From NCBI GenBank assembly GCA_018716065.1, contig DVKJ01000045.1:1-44906 (forward strand): a stretch of DNA of 44,906 bases, in the 5' to 3' direction. Made by a program: the position numbers and the translations under genes. Source of the stretch: Candidatus Pelethosoma merdigallinarum. Lineage in GTDB: Bacteria > Bacillota_I > Bacilli_A > RF39 > UBA660. Each line of letters starts with the position of its first letter. Within the stretch, counting starts at the first letter, position 1. Under the pieces are notes generated by a model. That model was not told where the DNA came from and searched no databases. It saw only the letters and a list, made by a program, of their open reading frames with translations. This document shows positions 8,201-44,647 of this stretch, piece after piece.

Positions 8201-10462
8201 GTGAAGAAACATGGTTTTACATTAGTGGAAATGTTGGGGATTTTAGTAGTCTTATCTATTATTGTGGTGATTTCTGTCCCAGCTATTACTTCAAGTTTAA
8301 AAAAGGCAGACCAACAACGTTATAACGATTGGTTAGATAATTTATATATTGCTGCTGAAGAATATGTGGAGTCTCATCGAGAAGATTTTTATGAGGTTAA
8401 TGCTGGTGCGACTTCTTATTTGTCGATTAAATTATTACTGGATCAAGGATATTTAAAAGATAGTGTTAAAGATCCAGAAACAGGGAAGGATATTACTGAT
8501 GTTGCGATTGTTAAAATCACGGTAAATGAAGATCAAACTTTAAAATATGAATTAATTTATAAAAGTGATTTGGATGCGATTGTTATTAGTGTTGGAATGG
8601 ACCCAGATCCAAATTTAGTCGCATGGACAAGTAAAGATGTTACTGTTACGATTTATGCGGAAGCTAGTACTGGAATTCGTGTAGATGAATTTTCATTTGA
8701 TGGTGGAAAAACGTGGCAAAAAAGCAATAAAAAATCATTTAATAAGAATCAAAAATTAACGGTCGTTGCGCGTGATTCTCGTTTTGATAGTCAAAGTGAA
8801 AAAAAGAATGTTGAAATTAAACATATTGATAAGACCGCACCTACGGTTGCAAATACGATTGTTAATTTAGTTACAACGAAGTCGATTACGGTACGTGCTG
8901 AATGTGTGGATCAAGAATCTGGTATTAAAGGATATCAATTTAGTAAAGATGGCGGAAAAACATGGACCGATGAACGTAATACAAGTAGTTATAAATTTGA
9001 TAATTTAACAACTGGTACTTATAAAATAAAAACACGTTGTATTAATGGTGCGGGTCTTAAAAAAGATTCAGCGACGGTTAATAAGAATACCCAAAATTTA
9101 GTAACCCCAACATGTACAATTTCTCCAGCTAGTGGTTGGACAAAAAATAAAACGATAAAGTTTAGTTTCCCATCTGGAGATGCGAATAATAAATTTACCT
9201 ATAGCTATCAGTTAGTTACAGGTGTGGGTACAGCGAGTGGAAAGAATCTTTCCTTAAAAACATGGTATAATACAACGAATGTAAATCAAGAAGTTGTGGT
9301 TACTTCTAGAGATAATACTGCTCAAGCTTCTATGATTGCGAAAGTAAGTGATGGTGTTAATACGGTTGCGGGTAGTACTTGTACAGCTACTCAAGTAGAT
9401 AGTGTCGCTCCAACGAAACCTTCTGTTACACTTAAATTAAATAATAGTAGTGGTAGAGGATATAGTAGTGGATCATGGACGAATCAAAATGTTTATCACT
9501 ATGCATCTACATCAGAAGTTGGTAGTGGAGTATCAAGATATCAATATTCTCATGATCAAAGAACATGGGCTAATGTAAGTGGTTGGCCATCTCACTCTTT
9601 AAGTGGAAATAATGTATCTTATATTATCAATTGGGAGGGAAATTGGAATTTCTATTTACGTGCGATTGATAGAGCTGGAAATGTAAGTCCTGCTTCTAAT
9701 GTGTTTACGGTACGAATTGATAAAACGAGACCAAGTTGTTCTAGTAGTGGAGGAAGTAGTTCATGGACTTCTGGAAATCGTACGTTAATTGGTACTTGTA
9801 GTGATAGTGGAGGAAGTGGTTGTCGAGGAAATGCTTCCAAACCTTATACATATTCTGGATCATGGTATAGTCAATCGCCTGGAACGGTATATGATTATGC
9901 TGGAAATTCTACAGCTTGTCCAGCTAACCAAACTGTAAAAATTGATAAAACGGCGCCATATTGTACTCATAGTGGAGATTCTACAAGTTGGGCAACATCG
10001 AGAACCATTTATTGGGGATGTGGAGATGACCGTAGTGGATGTACAGGAAGTGGTTCTAAGAGGTTTACCGCGGGATCTACAGTTACAACAGCCACAATTG
10101 CGGGTTATACCATTAGAAATGGTGCAGGTACATCAGTTTGGTGTCCAGCTCGTACCGCAAATGTTTATGTAAGACAAAATAAACCGGTTATTAAAGCTTA
10201 TTGTGGAAGTAATCAAAAACATAATCCACACTTCCAAACGACCAATGGAGTTGCGAGTCAATGGTACCGATATTATGTAAAAGGATATGCGAATGCGTAT
10301 TACAATCAAACCAATACAGGAGCCGGACAATTGAAAATACATAATTCTACATCTACTAGATTAGATTGGTATGTACGTCGTTATTCAAGGATAACTTCAC
10401 AAGGATGGAGCCGAGGAACAGGTAGTGGTCTTGTTTCGGATAGTAAATCAGTTACTTGTTAA
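8201..10462 (+). CDS. giant prepilin-like protein with N-terminal methylation motif and repeated Cys-containing Ig-like modules
   Basis: KKHGFTLVEMLGILVVLSIIVVISVPAI prepilin motif; repeated VDxxAPxx / IDKTxPxC modules with paired Cys. Confidence 0.85.
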   Translation: MKKHGFTLVEMLGILVVLSIIVVISVPAITSSLKKADQQRYNDWLDNLYIAAEEYVESHREDFYEVNAGATSYLSIKLLLDQGYLKDSVKDPETGKDITDVAIVKITVNEDQTLKYELIYKSDLDAIVISVGMDPDPNLVAWTSKDVTVTIYAEASTGIRVDEFSFDGGKTWQKSNKKSFNKNQKLTVVARDSRFDSQSEKKNVEIKHIDKTAPTVANTIVNLVTTKSITVRAECVDQESGIKGYQFSKDGGKTWTDERNTSSYKFDNLTTGTYKIKTRCINGAGLKKDSATVNKNTQNLVTPTCTISPASGWTKNKTIKFSFPSGDANNKFTYSYQLVTGVGTASGKNLSLKTWYNTTNVNQEVVVTSRDNTAQASMIAKVSDGVNTVAGSTCTATQVDSVAPTKPSVTLKLNNSSGRGYSSGSWTNQNVYHYASTSEVGSGVSRYQYSHDQRTWANVSGWPSHSLSGNNVSYIINWEGNWNFYLRAIDRAGNVSPASNVFTVRIDKTRPSCSSSGGSSSWTSGNRTLIGTCSDSGGSGCRGNASKPYTYSGSWYSQSPGTVYDYAGNSTACPANQTVKIDKTAPYCTHSGDSTSWATSRTIYWGCGDDRSGCTGSGSKRFTAGSTVTTATIAGYTIRNGAGTSVWCPARTANVYVRQNKPVIKAYCGSNQKHNPHFQTTNGVASQWYRYYVKGYANAYYNQTNTGAGQLKIHNSTSTRLDWYVRRYSRITSQGWSRGTGSGLVSDSKSVTC

Positions 10463-13696: not shown

Positions 13697-14350
13697 ATGG
13701 ATGAACTAATCAAAGAATACGAATCTTTAATATGGGCGGTTACAAAGAAATTTCCATATTATCAAAACAAAGAAGATTTATTTCAAGTTGGATGTATTGG
13801 ACTTATGGAAAGCTATAAAAACTATGATCCAAGTATGGGTACTAAGTTTAGTAGTTATGCCTATTTTTATATTTTAGGGGAAATGAGAAAGTTAGTACGT
13901 GAAGATAAAAGTATTAAAATTAGTAGAGAAATTACTAAATTAAGTTTAAAAATAGAAAAATTTAATGTGTTATTGACACAAAAATTAGGAAGATTTCCTA
14001 CTACACGTGAGATTGCCGAAGCGATTCCTTTACCAGAATCGTTAGTGATTGAAGCTCTTTGTTCTAGGCAAACTGTTCATAGTATGGAAGAACCAATTCA
14101 AACAGATGGAAAGGAAATGAGTTATCACGAAATCATTGGTGATAAGCAAGAAGATTTAGATTTATGGTTAGATTTAAAAAATGAACTTGAAAAATTACCA
14201 CCAGAAGAACAAGAATTTATTTATGAACGATATTTCAGAAATAAAACACAAAGTGAAATGGCAGAACGTCTTCACACGAGTCAAGTTCAAGTTTCTCGAA
14301 AAGAACAAAAAATACTTTGTAAATTAAAACGTCATTTAACACATTCCTAA
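13697..14350 (+). CDS. RNA polymerase sporulation sigma factor (SigF/SigG-like)
   Basis: KEDLFQVGCIGLMESYKNYDPSMGTKFSSYAYFYILGEMRKLVREDKSIKISRE and region 4 HTH; lies between spoIIAA and spoVAC. Confidence 0.88.
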   Translation: MDELIKEYESLIWAVTKKFPYYQNKEDLFQVGCIGLMESYKNYDPSMGTKFSSYAYFYILGEMRKLVREDKSIKISREITKLSLKIEKFNVLLTQKLGRFPTTREIAEAIPLPESLVIEALCSRQTVHSMEEPIQTDGKEMSYHEIIGDKQEDLDLWLDLKNELEKLPPEEQEFIYERYFRNKTQSEMAERLHTSQVQVSRKEQKILCKLKRHLTHS

Positions 14351-14406
14351 TGTGTTTTTTGTATAAAAGTAAATTTTTCTTCCATAATAACGGTAGGAGG
14401 AATATT

Positions 14407-14847
14407 ATGGAAAAGAATAAATATAAACATTTGGTGGAAAAACACACACCAAAAGAGAACAGTATTTATAATGGTTTAGTGGCGTTTACAATTGGTGGTT
14501 TAATGGGTGTATTAGGACAATTTTTATTGGAATTATATTCTTACCTTCTACACATACCAACCTCAGAAGCTTCTTCTTATATGATTATAACCTTAATATT
14601 TATAGGTTGTCTACTCACTTGTTTTGGTTTCTTCGATAAGTGGGTACACTTTGCAAAAGCTGGTCTTATTGTTCCGATTACCGGATTTGCTCATTCCATG
14701 ATGAGTGCGGCTTTAGAATATCGTAAAGAGGGAATGATCACAGGAATTGGTGCGAATATGTTAAAACTAAGTGGAAGTGTCATTATATTTGGAATTGTAA
14801 GTGCGTATTTATTTGGATTAATACGTTTGGTATTGATGGGAGGATAA
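14407..14847 (+). CDS. spoVAC: stage V sporulation protein AC
   Basis: SpoVAC-like sequence (FDKWVHFAKAGLIVPITGFAHSMMSAALEYRKEG); ATG after taggaggaa. Confidence 0.9.
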   Translation: MEKNKYKHLVEKHTPKENSIYNGLVAFTIGGLMGVLGQFLLELYSYLLHIPTSEASSYMIITLIFIGCLLTCFGFFDKWVHFAKAGLIVPITGFAHSMMSAALEYRKEGMITGIGANMLKLSGSVIIFGIVSAYLFGLIRLVLMGG

Positions 14848-14848
14848 C

Positions 14849-15838
14849 ATGACATTTAAATATAAGAATGTATATATTAATGAAACGGGAACGGTTGTTG
14901 GACCATTAGAAAAGAAAGGTCCACTGAATCATTACTTTGATAAGAGTCATGATGAATTTTATTTAGGAACTAAAACCTGGGAACAGGCAGAAACCAAATT
15001 GATTGAAGATGCGGTTGATATTACGTTAAGTAAGTTAGGAAAGAATCGTTTTGATATGGATTTATTTGTTTCTGGAGATTTATTAAATCAAATTGTGGCG
15101 TCTAATTATGCGGCAAGTACTTTAAATATTCCATATTTAGGAATTTATAATGCTTGTGCGACCAGTGTGGAAGGTTTAATTATTGCCTCTAATATGATTG
15201 AAGCCGGTCAAGTGAAACATTGTTTATGTGCGGCTTCTAGTCATAATAATGCGGCCGAAAAACAATTTCGTTATCCAGTAGAGTATGGAGGACCAAAACC
15301 TAAGACAACGACTTTTACTACAACAGGGGCCGCAGTTGCGTATTTAACTTATAATAAAAAAGGAATAAAGATTGAAAGTGCGACCATTGGTAAAGTCATT
15401 GATATGGGAATTAAAGATGCATATCAAATGGGTGCGGTGATGGCTCCAGCGGCTGCCGATACCATTTTTCGTCATTTACAAGATACCAAAAGAGAACCAG
15501 ATTATTACGATCTAATTGTTACAGGAGATTTGGGTAGTGTTGGTAAAGAAATCTTAGTGGATTACATGTATACCGAATACGGAATCGAATTAAATCACTA
15601 TGATGATACAGCGGCGATGATTTTTGATTTAAACTGTGAATCTGTTTATTCAGGGGGAAGTGGACCTGCTTGTGCACCACTCGTTACTTATGGCTATTTG
15701 TTTCACCAAATGCACAAAAAGAAATTAAAAAGAATCTTGCTCGTTGCGACCGGAGCTTTAATGAGTACAACGATGGTGAATCAAAAGTTAAGTATTCCTG
15801 CGATTGCGCACGCGATTAGTTTGGAGGTGGTAGAATGA
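14849..15838 (+). CDS. spoVAD: stage V sporulation protein AD
   Basis: Thiolase-like SpoVAD sequence (YNACATSVEGLIIASNMIEAG; GGSGPACAPLV). Confidence 0.93.
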   Translation: MTFKYKNVYINETGTVVGPLEKKGPLNHYFDKSHDEFYLGTKTWEQAETKLIEDAVDITLSKLGKNRFDMDLFVSGDLLNQIVASNYAASTLNIPYLGIYNACATSVEGLIIASNMIEAGQVKHCLCAASSHNNAAEKQFRYPVEYGGPKPKTTTFTTTGAAVAYLTYNKKGIKIESATIGKVIDMGIKDAYQMGAVMAPAAADTIFRHLQDTKREPDYYDLIVTGDLGSVGKEILVDYMYTEYGIELNHYDDTAAMIFDLNCESVYSGGSGPACAPLVTYGYLFHQMHKKKLKRILLVATGALMSTTMVNQKLSIPAIAHAISLEVVE

Positions 15839-19172: not shown

Positions 19173-19215
19173 AAAAGAAGTTCACTTTTATGTGAATTTT
19201 TTTGTCCGACTTTTC

Positions 19216-19244
19216 TTGACAAAAGACATTCTCAATTATATACT
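19216..19244 (+). promoter_or_regulatory. sigma-A-type promoter
   Basis: TTGACA-N17-TATACT upstream of 19267. Confidence 0.7.
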
Positions 19245-19266
19245 TATTATAGTAGGTGAATCGGAT

Positions 19267-19785
19267 ATGGATATGGAAAAAAGAAAAAAACAACACATGA
19301 TTATCATGGGATTAATTGGTGTTATATTTGGAATGACGATTGGTTATTCCGCTTTAAGCTCGCTTTTAAATATTAATGGCACGAGTAAAGTGACCGGAAA
19401 CTGGGATATTCATTTTGAATCAATTGAAGAAGGAACGATGGTAAATGCGACTACATTAGAAGCAACAACTGATCAAGGGACAACTGCCACATTTAATGTA
19501 GATTTAACGAAGCCAGGCTCTAGTGCGGAATATTTAGTAACGGTTAAAAATGGAGGAACCATTGATGCCGTAGTGGAAAGTATTGATGGAATTGATGAGA
19601 TTAATGCGGCCTCACCAACCGATATTGTTTATAGTGTGGAAGATATTACACCAGGTGATGAATTAGGTAGTGGAGCTTCCAAAGAATTTAAAGTGAAAGT
19701 CGTATGGAAATCTACTGCGACAACGATTATTAATAGTAGTAAAAAAGCTACGATTCATGTTAATTTTGTTCAAAAAACAAGCTAG
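19267..19785 (+). CDS. TasA/CalY-like (SipW-type signal peptide) surface protein
   Basis: GLIGVIFGMTIGYSALSSLLNINGTSKVTGNWDIHFESI; paralogous to the N-terminus of the 43318 gene. Confidence 0.75.
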   Translation: MDMEKRKKQHMIIMGLIGVIFGMTIGYSALSSLLNINGTSKVTGNWDIHFESIEEGTMVNATTLEATTDQGTTATFNVDLTKPGSSAEYLVTVKNGGTIDAVVESIDGIDEINAASPTDIVYSVEDITPGDELGSGASKEFKVKVVWKSTATTIINSSKKATIHVNFVQKTS

Positions 19786-29609: not shown

Positions 29610-29621
29610 GAGGTGATATCT

Positions 29622-30923
29622 ATGAAAAGGTTTATTACGGATTCTTTAATAGCGTGGAAAAATAGTAAAACAAGAAAACCTTTGATTTTAAAAGGTGCTA
29701 GACAAGTAGGAAAAACTTATATTTTAAAAGAGTTTGGAGAAAAATATTACCATGATATGGTATATTTTAACTTTGATCATGATGAAGGATTAAGTGATTT
29801 ATTTAAAAATACCAAAGATCCTAAAAGGATTATTGAACAACTTGCTTTAGCGAGTGGAAAAAAAATTGTACCAAATGACACTTTAATCTTCTTTGATGAA
29901 ATTCAAGAATGTCCCAATGCTTTAAATTCTTTAAAATATTTCTGTGAAGAAGTTCCTGAGTATCACATCGTATGTGCAGGTTCTTTATTAGGTATTCGTT
30001 TGTCAAGAACATCTTTTCCAGTAGGAAAAGTAGATTTTTTACAGTTATATCCCTTATCTTTTAGTGAATTTTTAATAGCTGACCATTGTGAAAATTTAGT
30101 TGAATATATGTCTCATCTGGATCAAATTGAACCCATCCCATCTCTTTTTGAATCACAATTAATTGAAAAATTGAAAACTTATTTTATCATTGGTGGTATG
30201 CCGGAAGCAGTATACAGTTGGGTAAACGAAAAAGATATTGAAAAAGTGAACTATATTCAAGATAACATTTTGCAAGCATATGAAAGTGATTTTTCAAAAC
30301 ATACTACAAATAGTGAAGCAAATAAAATATCTTTAATTTGGAACGGAATCCCATCACAATTGGCAAAAGAAAATAAAAAGTTCGTTTATCAAGCAATTAA
30401 ACCAGGGGCAAGAGCTCGTGAGTATGAGGATGCCCTAAATTGGTTAAACGATGCAAACTTAATCTATAAAACTTATAATGTAACAAAACCTGTTTTCCCA
30501 TTAACCGCCTATCACGATTTATCCTCTTTTAAAGTTTATTTGAATGATGTTGGATTACTTCGAAGAATGTCTCGTTTAGATAGTCGTATTATTTTGGAAG
30601 GTCATAAACTATTTGAAGAATTTAAAGGCTCTTTTACTGAAAACTATGTCTTTACGATGCTTAATAATTTTTATGATGGAATTCCAAATTATTATACTTT
30701 TGATCGTTATGAGATTGACTTTTTACTTCAATATCACAATCAAATCATTCCCGTAGAAGTTAAATCTGGAAAGAGTCATAATCATATTAGTTTGACAAAA
30801 TTTCATGAAAAATATAACAATGAAATTTCTATTTGTTTTTCTTTGGATAATTTAAAGAAAGATGGAAATATTGTTAACATACCACTTTATCTGGTAGAGT
30901 ATTTAGATCAAATTTTAAAATAA
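29622..30923 (+). CDS. AAA_14/DUF4143 ATPase
   Basis: Walker A KGARQVGKT; Walker B LIFFDEIQE; C-terminal EIDFLLQYHNQIIPVEVKSG. Confidence 0.93.
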   Translation: MKRFITDSLIAWKNSKTRKPLILKGARQVGKTYILKEFGEKYYHDMVYFNFDHDEGLSDLFKNTKDPKRIIEQLALASGKKIVPNDTLIFFDEIQECPNALNSLKYFCEEVPEYHIVCAGSLLGIRLSRTSFPVGKVDFLQLYPLSFSEFLIADHCENLVEYMSHLDQIEPIPSLFESQLIEKLKTYFIIGGMPEAVYSWVNEKDIEKVNYIQDNILQAYESDFSKHTTNSEANKISLIWNGIPSQLAKENKKFVYQAIKPGARAREYEDALNWLNDANLIYKTYNVTKPVFPLTAYHDLSSFKVYLNDVGLLRRMSRLDSRIILEGHKLFEEFKGSFTENYVFTMLNNFYDGIPNYYTFDRYEIDFLLQYHNQIIPVEVKSGKSHNHISLTKFHEKYNNEISICFSLDNLKKDGNIVNIPLYLVEYLDQILK

Positions 30924-30950
30924 AACGAATGATTCACCATCATTCGTTTT
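30922..30950. terminator. bidirectional terminator
   Basis: Perfect 12-bp stem AAAACGAATGAT-tcacc-ATCATTCGTTTT between convergent genes. Confidence 0.85.
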
Positions 30951-31680
30951 AACTTTTCATATAATCTTTATAATGTCTTTCCATGAAATCATTATAAGCA
31001 TTATTTTCTAAAATTAAATTAAATTTCTTTATTGGATATTTACGATTTTTTGAAGAAATAACTTTTCTTAAGAAATATCTTGTAAATTCTGGGTTACGAA
31101 TTAAGAAAGGACCTACTAAATAAGTTCCATAGAAATTCTTATCTTGAATTCCTTCACTCGAAGAATTAGGATAACTTCCAGTTCCTTTTATCACACGGAA
31201 TAGGGGATGATCATTTCCTAAAAGAACACTACGTTGATTTTGGAATCCTAAAATAGGTTTCTTAATGAATGAACATTCAAATAAAGCTTCATCCACGATT
31301 TTAAAATCTTCTTGTTTTGCTTCATAATGAAACAATCCAACACCACGATATTTCTTTCCATTTTTATCCACAATATTTTGACCAAATAACTCAATAGAGT
31401 TTCCCGTTATCAAAAAGAATTTATTGTTATTATAATATTCTTCAATATCTTTTTTATATTTACGTAAATGTTTTAAGCAGGTGAGTTGATTTTCTTCGGT
31501 TCCCATACCGATATATACGATATCATAATCATTAAATTTTAATTCATCATCAATCGTTAAAAATTTAACGGTTACTTTGATACCTTGATCTTCTAATTGT
31601 TGTTTTATGATTTTTACATTTCCATTTTCACCATATAGATTTAATAAATCATAATATAAGTGGGCAATTGTTATACTCAT
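30949..31680 (-). CDS. GatD-like class I glutamine amidotransferase domain protein lacking catalytic Cys and His
   Basis: GatD-like sequence (HLYYDLLNLYGENGN; GFQNQRS; GTYLVGPFLIRNPEF); expected nucleophile Cys is Thr, expected His is Val. Confidence 0.85.
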   Translation of the reverse strand: MSITIAHLYYDLLNLYGENGNVKIIKQQLEDQGIKVTVKFLTIDDELKFNDYDIVYIGMGTEENQLTCLKHLRKYKKDIEEYYNNNKFFLITGNSIELFGQNIVDKNGKKYRGVGLFHYEAKQEDFKIVDEALFECSFIKKPILGFQNQRSVLLGNDHPLFRVIKGTGSYPNSSSEGIQDKNFYGTYLVGPFLIRNPEFTRYFLRKVISSKNRKYPIKKFNLILENNAYNDFMERHYKDYMKS

Positions 31681-33026
31681 TTTTTCTCACCTTCATTCAA
31701 CATTTTATTAAAGTCATCCATATAATTAAAATTAATAATGGCGTAAATATCTCCTTTAGTTCTTCTGGTAATAGATCCTTCGGCTTTCTTTAAATCTTCA
31801 TAAACAAAGATTTTTTTAGGATCTACACCACTATATTTTAGTCTTGTTGCTAGGTCATAACGATTAATTCCTAAACAAATAATACGATCGATATCGTGTT
31901 TTTTTAATATTTCAAAGTCAATATCGTATAACCATGATAGATCGTTATATTTGTAACGCAAGCTAATGACGTTCCATCCAATCACAACGGTTTTAAGTCC
32001 TTTATTACGATTTAAAAACATTAAGGCATGATTGAAAGTTGAACTATTTTCATTCTTGGTATTTAAAACATAGACCTCTCTATTTTTATATTCGTAGTGA
32101 TTAAAGTTCTTCTTGTTATAACTACTTAGACTAATGGCCTCACTTGCCTTTTCTAAGTCTAGTCCCATATATCCTAACGTTGTAAAAGCTGCAAGGGTAT
32201 TATAAACGCAATATAGAGTATCAAATGGAAATACTACTTTATATTGATCATTTACGATCATTTCGCGTTTGTCATAATTCACTTTACTTGCGACATATTC
32301 ACTCTTTGGATTTTTAAAAGAACATTTTGTACAGTGATAGTGTCCAATCGCTTCAAAGTGATAGTAATCATATTCTAATTTTTTACCACACTTTGGACAA
32401 TGGGTAATATTTAAGTTTTCACATAAACTAGTTTTGGTAGATTGTTTCGTTTTATCTAAACTATAATAAGTCACTTTATATTCATTATTTAACACTAATT
32501 TTTGTAAGTATGGATCATCCGCATTTAGGATGAGGTGCATCTTAGGATTTAGTGCTTTTTTAATATCTTCTAAAACTAAATCAAAGTGTCCTTGACGAGG
32601 TGGTTGATCACGACTAATATTGGTAATTACAACTGTTTGTGGTTTTAAAATAGGGAATACCACTTTCGCATAACGTTCATCCACTTCTAATACTAAGACA
32701 TCCACATCCATAACTCCATTTAGATTACTGTATTCAATCAGTGCGGTAAGTACACCATATTGTAAATTTCCTTCACGATAATTATGTGCGACTTTATAAC
32801 CTAAAGATTTATAAACTTCCGCAATCATTTTAGAAGTAGATCCTTTTCCACAACTACCAGTTACCGCAATAATTTTTTTTGGTAACTTTATTTTTTCCAT
32901 AATATGAGAATCTAACTTTAACGCAACGGCACCAGGGAGACTACTACCACGATGCATTTTATCTCCTAACCATAAAACACTTTTACCAGCTAGAATACTT
33001 AATTTTTTCATTGTATCACGCTCCAT
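31677..33026 (-). CDS. MurT-like Mur ligase family protein
   Basis: Mur ligase P-loop VTGSCGKGSTS; four-Cys ribbon CPKC...CTKC; C-terminal DLSWLYDIDFE; overlaps the gatD-like start by 4 nt. Confidence 0.88.
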   Translation of the reverse strand: MERDTMKKLSILAGKSVLWLGDKMHRGSSLPGAVALKLDSHIMEKIKLPKKIIAVTGSCGKGSTSKMIAEVYKSLGYKVAHNYREGNLQYGVLTALIEYSNLNGVMDVDVLVLEVDERYAKVVFPILKPQTVVITNISRDQPPRQGHFDLVLEDIKKALNPKMHLILNADDPYLQKLVLNNEYKVTYYSLDKTKQSTKTSLCENLNITHCPKCGKKLEYDYYHFEAIGHYHCTKCSFKNPKSEYVASKVNYDKREMIVNDQYKVVFPFDTLYCVYNTLAAFTTLGYMGLDLEKASEAISLSSYNKKNFNHYEYKNREVYVLNTKNENSSTFNHALMFLNRNKGLKTVVIGWNVISLRYKYNDLSWLYDIDFEILKKHDIDRIICLGINRYDLATRLKYSGVDPKKIFVYEDLKKAEGSITRRTKGDIYAIINFNYMDDFNKMLNEGEKK

Positions 33027-33077
33027 TTATATCATTGTATCATGTATCACAAACCCCGTCCACAAATTTTTTCTAGT

Positions 33078-33139: not shown

Positions 33140-33388
33140 ATGGAAAAGATGTTTAAAACAGAAATTGAATATCGTAAAGATACATTATTTGTACAAGTAT
33201 TTGGTCCATTAACAAGGCGAAACATTTCTAAATTAAAAAGAAAACTTTATTATATTTTAACGGAGTATGGAATTGGTCATGTAGTGATGAATATCACCGA
33301 AGCCACACCATTTGATTCTGATGAATTTTATCGTTTTTTAGACGAATACGATATTGAGTTTGGTGGAGAACTAGAAATTGTAAAATAA
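33140..33388 (+). CDS. short STAS-like SpoIIAA paralog
   Basis: Ungapped alignment to the 13343 gene (EIEYRKDTLFVQVFGPL / NMEYRKGVLFIRFVGEL); alternative start at 33149. Confidence 0.6.
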   Translation: MEKMFKTEIEYRKDTLFVQVFGPLTRRNISKLKRKLYYILTEYGIGHVVMNITEATPFDSDEFYRFLDEYDIEFGGELEIVK

Positions 33389-33498: not shown

Positions 33499-34514
33499 CA
33501 ACCGATATTACTTTTAGTATTTCAGATATCGCAGTTAACGATAAGTTAAAAGCAAAAGAATCCAAAGTGTTTAAGGTAAAAGTAGATTGGAGTAGTGCGT
33601 CAACGAGTATTCCCGATACGAATAAAGACTTAACATTAAAAATTAACTTTGTGCAAGATACTGGAAATACACCATCTTATGAAGGACCAATGTCAGATTG
33701 GTTAATTGAAAATGTAGTAAGTGAAGATATTACAAGTAGTCCAACAGAAGGATTATTTGGAATTAATGATCAAGGAGAACTTACAACATCAGACAATCCT
33801 AGAGAATATCGATATATCGGAGCTGATCCAGACAATTATGTTCAATTCAATAATGAATTATGGAGAATTATTGGAATCTTTGATGGACAATTGAAGATTA
33901 TTAGTGATGAATTTTTATACTATGGGAAGTGGGATGATGAAGATGAACAAAACGAATATGGAGAAAATGATTGGAGTAAGGCAAGTTTACAAATATACTT
34001 AAATAATGATTATTATGAAACAATTGATCCAGAAGATCAAACAAAAATTGATAGTAATTATACATGGAAATTAGGAGGAAGTAGTAGTTGGGAGAATGCA
34101 CCTGCTCAAATGTTTTATGAGCAAGAACGAGGAACTGATGTATCTGAAGGAAGACCAACCGAATGGACTGGTTCAATTGCTTTAATGTATCCAAGTGATT
34201 ATGGTTTTGCAACAAGCGGAGGAAGTACAACAAATCGAAGTAGTTGTTTAGTAGCAGCATTATATAACTGGCCAGATGTAGAAGATTGTAATATCAATAG
34301 TTGGTTATATGATAGTTCAAGCGATCAATGGACACTGACCCCTGGTGCGTCGCCGAACAACGTGAGAGTGAACATTGTGTCTAGCATAGGGTTTGTGAAT
34401 GGTGTAAGCAACCCGAACTATTCGAATGGGGCTCGCCCAACCCTTTATCTCGTACCCAATGTAGAAATAGCTTCCGGTACAGGTATCAGTTCTGATCCAT
34501 ATATCTTGAAGTAA
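33492..34514 (+). pseudogene. 5'-truncated TasA-like surface protein with a DGR-like C-terminal variable region
   Basis: Homology to the 19267 and 43318 genes resumes at NASTDITFSISDI...FKVKVDW; no signal peptide; C-terminal WTLTPGASPNNVRVNIVSSIGFVNGVSNPNYSNGARPTLYLVPN. Confidence 0.7.
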
Positions 34515-43317: not shown

Positions 43318-44647
43318 ATGAGAACACGAAAGAAACAGAGAATTATTATAGGAACTTTATGTGCCGTGATTATCGGCTTAGCCGTAGGCTATGCGGTCTT
43401 AAGCCAACAACTAAACATTCAAGAAACGAGTGGAATTACAAGTGATTTTAAGATTATATTTACGAATATTGAAGAGATCAATCAAATACCAGAGAGTGGA
43501 GATTTTAATGACTTTGATAATAGTTTTTTAGCTATTACGCTAGGGGGCAGGTGGAATCGCTCATGATATTACTACTTTGAAAGCTCAAGTGGTTAATGAA
43601 CATCAAATTGATTTAGTTGTTGATATGAAAAAGCCAGGGGCAACAGGTGTGTATGAAATTAGTGTAGAAAATACTGGTAAATTAGATGGATATATTACTG
43701 ATATAACCGGATTAGAGGAAACAAATGCTTCTGAACCAACTGATATTCAATTTCAATTATTAAACTTTAAAGAGGATCAAAAAATTCGAGTAGGAGAAGT
43801 AAAGAAGTTTGTACTGATTGTAACTTGGGATGAAGAGGCAACAACGATTCCAAAAACGAGTAAGAATCTAACTCTAGATTTAACAGTTACTCAATACTCA
43901 GAACAACATCAAGATCGTCCAGATATACCAGAAGCTAGTGGTAAAATAGAATACGCGATTGGAGATGAAGTTTATTTTGATCCAGTCAAAGATCAAAGAT
44001 GTTATAGTGATGAAGCATGGACATTAGACGATAAATCAAGAACTTGTTATAAATGGAATGTCATAAAGATGAGCGATTCAAGTAGTGACACGGTAGAATT
44101 ACTGCTAGACCATGATTTACCTGGAACAACCGCATGGGTAAGTTTAGAAGATTATCAAGTAGCTGGAGGAACGGAAGAGGAATACGGAACTATGGGAAAT
44201 AATAAATATGGACCAATAACTGCTTTAAAACATTTAAAACAAGGAACGGATAGTTGGAATGGAGTAGTAACTTTAACTTCTGCCGATAACGTAACAAGAG
44301 AAAATGGTATTGGAGGAAACTACACCATCAACTATGAAGGATATAAAGCAAGATTAATTAGTGGACAAGAACTAGCCGATATCGCAGGAGAACTAGACTG
44401 GAATGGTAACACAATCGAAGGATTACCAACATGGACTTATAGTAATATGGCAATAAGTGCGGATGCGAGTGATATTTCAGATAATGATTTCTACGAACAC
44501 GTAAATTATTTGACTGATTCTGCTCAATCTTCGCATCCTGGCAGTATGTAGAATGTGAGCAATGGTGGTTACTTGTCTAGCGGTAATAACATAATGAATT
44601 CGTACGGTGTCCGCCCAGTCGTACGTATTCTCAAATCAAGTTTGTAA
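43318..44647 (+). pseudogene. TasA-like surface protein with DGR-like C-terminal region, disrupted by a frameshift and an in-frame stop
   Basis: Signal peptide RIIIGTLCAVIIGLAVGYAVLSQQLNI; frameshift at G5 (43543-43547); after the TAG at 44549-44551 the frame continues NVSNGGYLSSGNNIMNSYGVRPVVRILKSSL to TAA at 44645. Confidence 0.8.

Follow-up and report, generated by a model that had tools for sequence, protein, structure and literature searches.

The closest described relatives of the locus analysed here are the lipid II isoglutaminyl synthases MurT/GatD of Staphylococcus aureus and Streptococcus pneumoniae, an antibacterial target which is assumed to be driven by glutamine. Neither MurT nor GatD of S. 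aureus is active alone (PMC3266927), and glutamine is captured by Arg128 of GatD, with the R128A variant being inactive (PMC5871853). On the ligase side, Lys59, Thr60 and Glu108 of S. aureus MurT contribute to nucleotide and Mg binding, with T60A and E108A being inactive (PMC6113224), and in S. pneumoniae the Asn of the GAN motif (counterpart of Asn85) and an acidic pair are required for activity (PMC6085368). The latter work also reports that Bacillaceae almost entirely lack murT-gatD. When the nucleophile was replaced in the laboratory, S. aureus MurT together with GatD C94G no longer used glutamine, but lipid II amidation by NH3 at pH 8.5 was unaffected (PMC3266927). A natural precedent from a different pathway is human CPS1, whose glutaminase domain is inactive by exchange of the catalytic Cys for Ser and which uses free ammonia (PMC4655335).

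A GatD devoid of its catalytic residues was not found described in the open-licence literature. A survey of uncultured Bacilli orders including RF39 predicted mostly walled and partly spore-forming organisms and did not mention MurT/GatD (PMC10868615). Here, we analysed such a GatD and its MurT partner, encoded on a stretch of 44,906 nucleotides from Candidatus Pelethosoma merdigallinarum (contig DVKJ01000045.1; hereafter the window), and compared both with relatives from the same family and beyond.

Results

The gatD-like gene spans positions 30949..31680 on the minus strand (243 aa) and is preceded on the same strand by a murT-like gene at 31677..33026 (449 aa), which is predicted to encode the ATP-dependent ligase partner. 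Both genes overlap by 4 nt (ATGA) in the order known from MurT/GatD systems, and the reading frame, strand, coordinates and overlap given by a first-pass annotation of this DNA were borne out. The same holds for its assignment of the protein to the GatD fold family: Pfam GATase_3 matched residues 4-196 with 57.8 bits (cut-off 27, E=1.5e-15), the best PDB match in phmmer was a GatD chain (E=8e-35), and a comparison with canonical GatDs by hhalign gave 100% probability over 243 columns. The partner, likewise rightly named as MurT, carries the Pfam domains Mur_ligase_M and MurT_C and has the S. aureus MurT chain as closest solved structure (E=1.2e-53). Scores against the curated NCBIfam models stayed below the cut-offs for GatD (NF045636, 127.9 bits, cut-off 400) and for MurT (NF052464 and NF045635, 201.6 and 179.8 bits, cut-off 800).

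Upstream of murT, a promoter-like site (33034..33062, minus strand; TGGACG-17-TACAAT with a TG before the -10 element) was assigned by consensus match only, and a terminator-like inverted repeat (30921..30951) separates gatD from the convergent gene at 29613-30923. Divergent from murT lies a short STAS/SpoIIAA-like gene (33140..33388, plus strand, 82 aa; NCBIfam spore_II_AA 21 bits, below cut-off), which recurred in this arrangement at 27 of the 80 MurT loci compared and in varied neighbourhoods; it may be functionally tied to the MurT-GatD pair. Some variant loci adjoin ftsA/ftsZ, murG/murB/ftsQ-like genes or yqfC/yqfD, with neighbours named by reading their sequences and YqfC and YqfD by Pfam/NCBIfam. 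These neighbours support a wall-related role and hint at a link to sporulation, although most of them are located on the opposite strand and the link may perhaps reflect ancestral gene order alone.

Elsewhere in the window, positions 13697-15838 hold a sigma factor followed by genes which read by eye like SpoVAC and SpoVAD, and the lineage probably sporulates. Several further open reading frames (8201-10462, 19192-19785, 33567-34514 and 43577-44551) appear secreted, repeat-like or pilin-like; some of them share stretches, e.g., SKNLTL, and one begins with the prepilin-type sequence KKHGFTLVEMLG.

The first-pass annotation had named Cys94 and His189 as the catalytic residues of S. aureus GatD, which proved correct, and had reported Thr and Val at the equivalent positions. 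Both catalytic residues are indeed absent and Val189 (codon GTA, 31114..31116, minus strand, within GTYLVGPFLIRNP) does occupy the position of His189, but the equivalent of Cys94 is Gly93 (codon GGA, 31402..31404, minus strand) and not Thr92, which lies opposite Ile93. Three alignments (phmmer, MAFFT and hhalign, the latter comparing the profiles of 30 variant and 11 canonical GatDs) agree on this placement and are free of gaps in this stretch, setting F-L-I-T92-G93-N94-S95-I-E-L-F-G of the window against L-T-I93-C94-G95-G96-Y-Q-F-L-G of S. aureus. Gly93 is flanked on the minus strand by the codons of Thr92 (31405-31407), confirmed as ACG, and of Asn94 (31399-31401). Asn94 stands at the oxyanion-hole position Gly95, Ser95 at Gly96, and Met59 at the oxyanion residue Gly60.

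We therefore regard continued glutamine hydrolysis, by way of a nucleophile that has moved or is provided by Thr, as very improbable. Thr92 is invariant in the 30 variant GatDs (alignment A1), but it sits beside a nucleophile position which is itself Gly, leaving no basis for this idea. Moreover, the base is replaced by Val, Ile or Leu, the oxyanion glycines are gone, and the exchange C94S inactivates S. aureus GatD (PMC6113224). An intact Cys/His pair elsewhere in the pocket was not found either: no other conserved Cys or His is suitably placed, and Cys68 and Cys136 of the window GatD, present in 4/61 and 16/61 variants, are no plausible substitutes.

The genome of the window (1.32 Mb, 66 contigs, 91% complete) is MAG-like, as are probably most of the genomes compared, and errors of sequencing or assembly, as well as pseudogene decay, had to be considered as sources of the missing residues. 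MurT_C was present in 160 of 386 genomes of the family, and among 80 sampled MurT loci, mostly one per genus, GatD adjoined MurT in 78; in G200, a variant MurT (L086:5522-6832) stands without adjoining GatD. Canonical GatDs, featuring the motifs ICGG and GTYLHGP (ICGA in G206, VCGG in G044), were restricted to G027, G070, G206 and G316 within the family and to the class outgroups G041 and G044. The remaining 72 of the 78 GatDs were non-canonical, one being truncated by a contig end. Both catalytic residues were lost in 72/72 readable non-canonical GatDs (72/73 readable with G438 included) from about 63 genera, as tallied from genome handles, with Gly at position 94 in 71 cases and Ser in one, and Ile, Leu, Val, Thr or Phe at position 189. 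Such joint loss is far beyond chance.

In a tree of GatD and MurT, built without the catalytic motif columns, all 72 non-canonical family rows formed one clade (SH-aLRT 100), so that the loss of the catalytic residues maps to one change and a single origin. The clade splits into a var group of 60 rows (support 86) and an rds group of 12 rows (support 100; L078, L093, L098, L108, L109, L115, L120, L123, L127, L130, L131 and L135). The rds paralogs share with the var type the glutaminase loss and its origin; they differ by RDS in place of RDQ, a KGQNP/KNQNP-like loop, and the loss of Asp349 in 7/12 and of Arg128 in 12/12 sequences. Outside the family of the window, G438 of family f19 (locus L163) encodes a related glutaminase-dead pair with FTGCA (FTGCAMELLG) and GTHIIGP, in which a Cys lies one position past the nucleophile site, whereas ten other aligned f19 GatDs are canonical at both positions. 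When 392 genomes spread across the phylum were scanned, the best hits included no further variants.

Relatives of the same genus all lack both residues, and their dN/dS values against the window amount to 0.07-0.20 for gatD and 0.11-0.13 for murT. The motif TGN[SA] is conserved among variant GatDs and the reading frames are intact. Given the single origin, the spread over about 60 genera and the low dN/dS, error or decay in the MAG-like source is scarcely credible, and the glutaminase loss, as judged from sequence comparison, is an old, selected state. The proposal of the first-pass annotation that glutaminase chemistry has been lost while fold and operon were kept is thus strongly supported and applies lineage-wide. 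Its further suggestion, a structural subunit within a ligase fed by free ammonia, finds a direct precedent in the biochemistry of S. aureus GatD C94G (PMC3266927).

GatDs of the var group keep the residues at the pocket entrance, namely Tyr17 (58/60), an acidic residue at position 19 (58/60), Asn148, Gly190-Pro191, and Arg or Lys at position 128 (57/60, of which Arg in 52 and Lys in 5). The window itself features Lys127 at this position (31300..31302, minus strand). In contrast, Gly60, Gly95, Gly96 and His149 are all replaced. The catalytic chemistry of the var type is thus gone while ligand binding is perhaps retained, which is the main argument for a GatD that binds an amine as well as for one that acts as sensor. 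An AlphaFold2 model of GatD from four sequences reached a mean pLDDT of 42.7 and was set aside.

As sensor, GatD could bind glutamine (or glutamate) without cleaving it and thereby switch MurT on or off. The combination of kept capture and gate residues with lost catalytic ones would suit such a role, as would a lineage apparently devoid of glutamine synthesis via glutamine synthetase. We nevertheless consider it improbable, since it leaves the amine donor unnamed and since glutamine may not fit a pocket in which Gly60, Gly95 and His149 are replaced.

MurT was compared between 60 variant and 21 canonical sequences. The residues conserved in both sets (S. aureus numbering) include Lys59, Asn85, Glu108, Asp110, Glu111, Asn130, Arg133, Asp134, Gln135, Arg138, Asp166, three zinc-ribbon Cys, Lys315, Asp349, Trp352 and Asp355. 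On the minus strand of the window, all four cysteines of the zinc-ribbon insertion are present (Cys210, Cys213, Cys232 and Cys235; 32322..32399), and Asp362 (31941..31943) takes the position of Asp349, whose role was described in S. aureus (PMC6113224); this position is Asp in 58/60 variants and Glu in the other two.

Several other elements are rebuilt. The P-loop TGTNGKTTT reads TGSSGKGST in the variants and TGSCGKGST in the window (32835..32861, minus strand), with Thr60 replaced by Gly in 45/60 variants, followed by Ser. The GKGS spelling resembles FolC-type P-loops. Two insertions of the window MurT, both on the minus strand, are Asn325-Glu326 (32049..32054; KNEN for KNP), with Glu in 58/60 variants and in 0/21 canonical MurTs, and Arg357-Tyr358 (31953..31958; SLRY/SRRY), present in 59/60 variants and absent from canonical MurTs, where DGRD stands in place of SRRYxxND. 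Furthermore, the loop RDQLDRxGE became RDQPPRQGH, exchanging Asp137 for Pro or Ala and Glu141 for His, and Arg375 became Phe or His. By published structures and alignment, the differences fall mainly in loops directed towards GatD and the nucleophile, while residues for ATP and acceptor stay.

This pattern bears on the possibility that a different amine, e.g., an amino acid, is joined to the activated carboxyl, with the GatD pocket holding the amine or its carboxylate without hydrolysis. The clustering of the MurT changes at the nucleophile and GatD side (the Asn-Glu and Arg-Tyr insertions, Arg375, Asp137 and Glu141), together with a pocket entrance retained despite lost chemistry, is consistent with such an exchange of substrate. 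In addition, var and rds types coexist in G031, G221, G245 and G170, as would be expected if they add different groups. However, the sequences directly indicate no particular amine, Arg128 is perhaps structural and missing from the rds type, and no dedicated amino-acid gene was consistently linked to the variant loci when their neighbourhoods were compared. We therefore treat another amine as a possible but doubtful donor.

No other MurT_C or GATase_3 match, and hence no second canonical murT-gatD pair, was found in the genome of the window, of which about 9% is missing; apart from this missing part, the pair is thus the only candidate for MurT-GatD function. Its MurT is one of seven Mur-ligase domains, alongside MurC, MurD, two MurE and two MurF-like proteins, and the genome thus encodes the ligases that build the stem peptide. 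The MurE paralogs lie in tandem (L030/L031; contig C13, 1157-3911), both score above the NCBIfam MurE cut-off, and their amino-acid-binding motifs read DNPR in one and DDPH in the other; this pairing may point to an unusual third stem-peptide residue. Two MurEs are common in the family, and counts, judged by eye, revealed no obvious link between MurE duplication and MurT. Besides a normal MurF (L033), a MurF-like ligase (L032:946-2538, contig C38) features an N-terminal hydrophobic, membrane-like region and adjoins a D-Ala-D-Ala ligase-like gene. A FemAB-family protein (L034:1-1012; Pfam 133 bits) adjoins MurD and points to an interpeptide bridge in the wall or to the transfer of amino acids to it.

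Concerning nitrogen, glutamine synthetase matches were found in 1 of 67 family genomes and in 10 of 13 class outgroups. Its lack was rejected as driver of the GatD loss, since it was also absent from all six family members with canonical GatD (0/6) and thus forms a background rather than a correlate of glutaminase loss. GATase domains of the GuaA, PyrG or CarA type were not found in the genome of the window and are few across its family; the only two GATase matches in this genome, both small and standalone, resemble gamma-glutamyl hydrolases.

Discussion

The nucleophile, base and oxyanion residues of GatD were lost with a single origin, both genes are under purifying selection, and the ligase residues of MurT were kept while its loops were rebuilt in the same lineage. 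From these sequence features, the amine of the variant pair does not look to be derived from glutamine hydrolysis in GatD. As the best explanation, MurT would bind ATP and activate a carboxylate, which is most likely the D-Glu alpha-carboxyl of lipid II (or lipid I), as acyl phosphate. GatD would be indispensable to it without performing hydrolysis, giving the active site its shape and acting as its gate, and the amine donor would most likely be free ammonia instead of glutamine. Taken as a whole, this ammonia-using MurT-GatD is put forward tentatively. That the complex is glutaminase-dead and yet an active ligase appears likely, with the exchange of Walker Thr60 for Gly in 45/60 variants standing against it, as S. 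aureus T60A is inactive. Given such a complex, NH3 is a somewhat more plausible donor than any other, and the D-Glu alpha-carboxyl of lipid II (or lipid I) would most likely be the acceptor.

Compared to the MurT/GatD enzymes of S. aureus and S. pneumoniae, the pair in the window shares the two-subunit organization, gene order, zinc-ribbon Mur core, GATase_3 domain and Asp349. It differs by the missing Cys94, His189 and oxyanion glycines of GatD and by the altered P-loop, two insertions and altered RDQxxR loop of MurT, in line with the sub-cut-off NCBIfam scores. The engineered S. aureus GatD C94G with MurT (PMC3266927) resembles it in featuring Gly at the nucleophile position next to a retained GatD, and the natural Gly at this position together with the retention of GatD fits an ammonia-using complex with a structural GatD. 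The engineered variant is, however, a laboratory mutant with His189 and a canonical MurT, whereas the natural loss is old and accompanied by changes in MurT. Human CPS1 likewise kept a class I glutaminase domain without its catalytic Cys, but its synthase and pathway are unrelated, and ammonia use is proven there while it is inferred for the variant pair.

The nitrogen economy of a family without glutamine synthetase and of a genome without GATases of the GuaA, PyrG or CarA type agrees in part with ammonia as donor. Against it stands that S. aureus MurT-GatD used NH3 only at pH 8.5 and not at 7.5 (PMC3266927). Furthermore, the mere loss of glutaminase activity does not explain the rebuilt nucleophile-side loops of MurT and the retained Arg/Lys128 of GatD. 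We favour ammonia as donor and rank another amine second. In its most specific form, namely that the dead pair adds an amino acid or organic amine to the D-Glu alpha-carboxyl of lipid II with GatD as amine-binding subunit, the latter option is rather unlikely. If true, it would provide a type of ligase for walls bearing an amino acid on the D-Glu carboxyl, e.g., those with group B cross-links or the glycine of Micrococcus. To our knowledge, no ligase has been assigned to amino acids on the D-Glu alpha-carboxyl of group B and Micrococcus walls, and the open-licence papers searched yielded no ligase for alpha-substituents of D-Glu.

In a lineage featuring a dead glutaminase, but selection on both subunits, the structural role of GatD is set apart from the chemistry it performs elsewhere. 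The variant pairs thereby offer naturally occurring material on which the ammonia route of MurT-GatD, so far unsolved, can be studied. For the organisms themselves, the pair predicts a modification of the cell wall from free ammonia or another amine.
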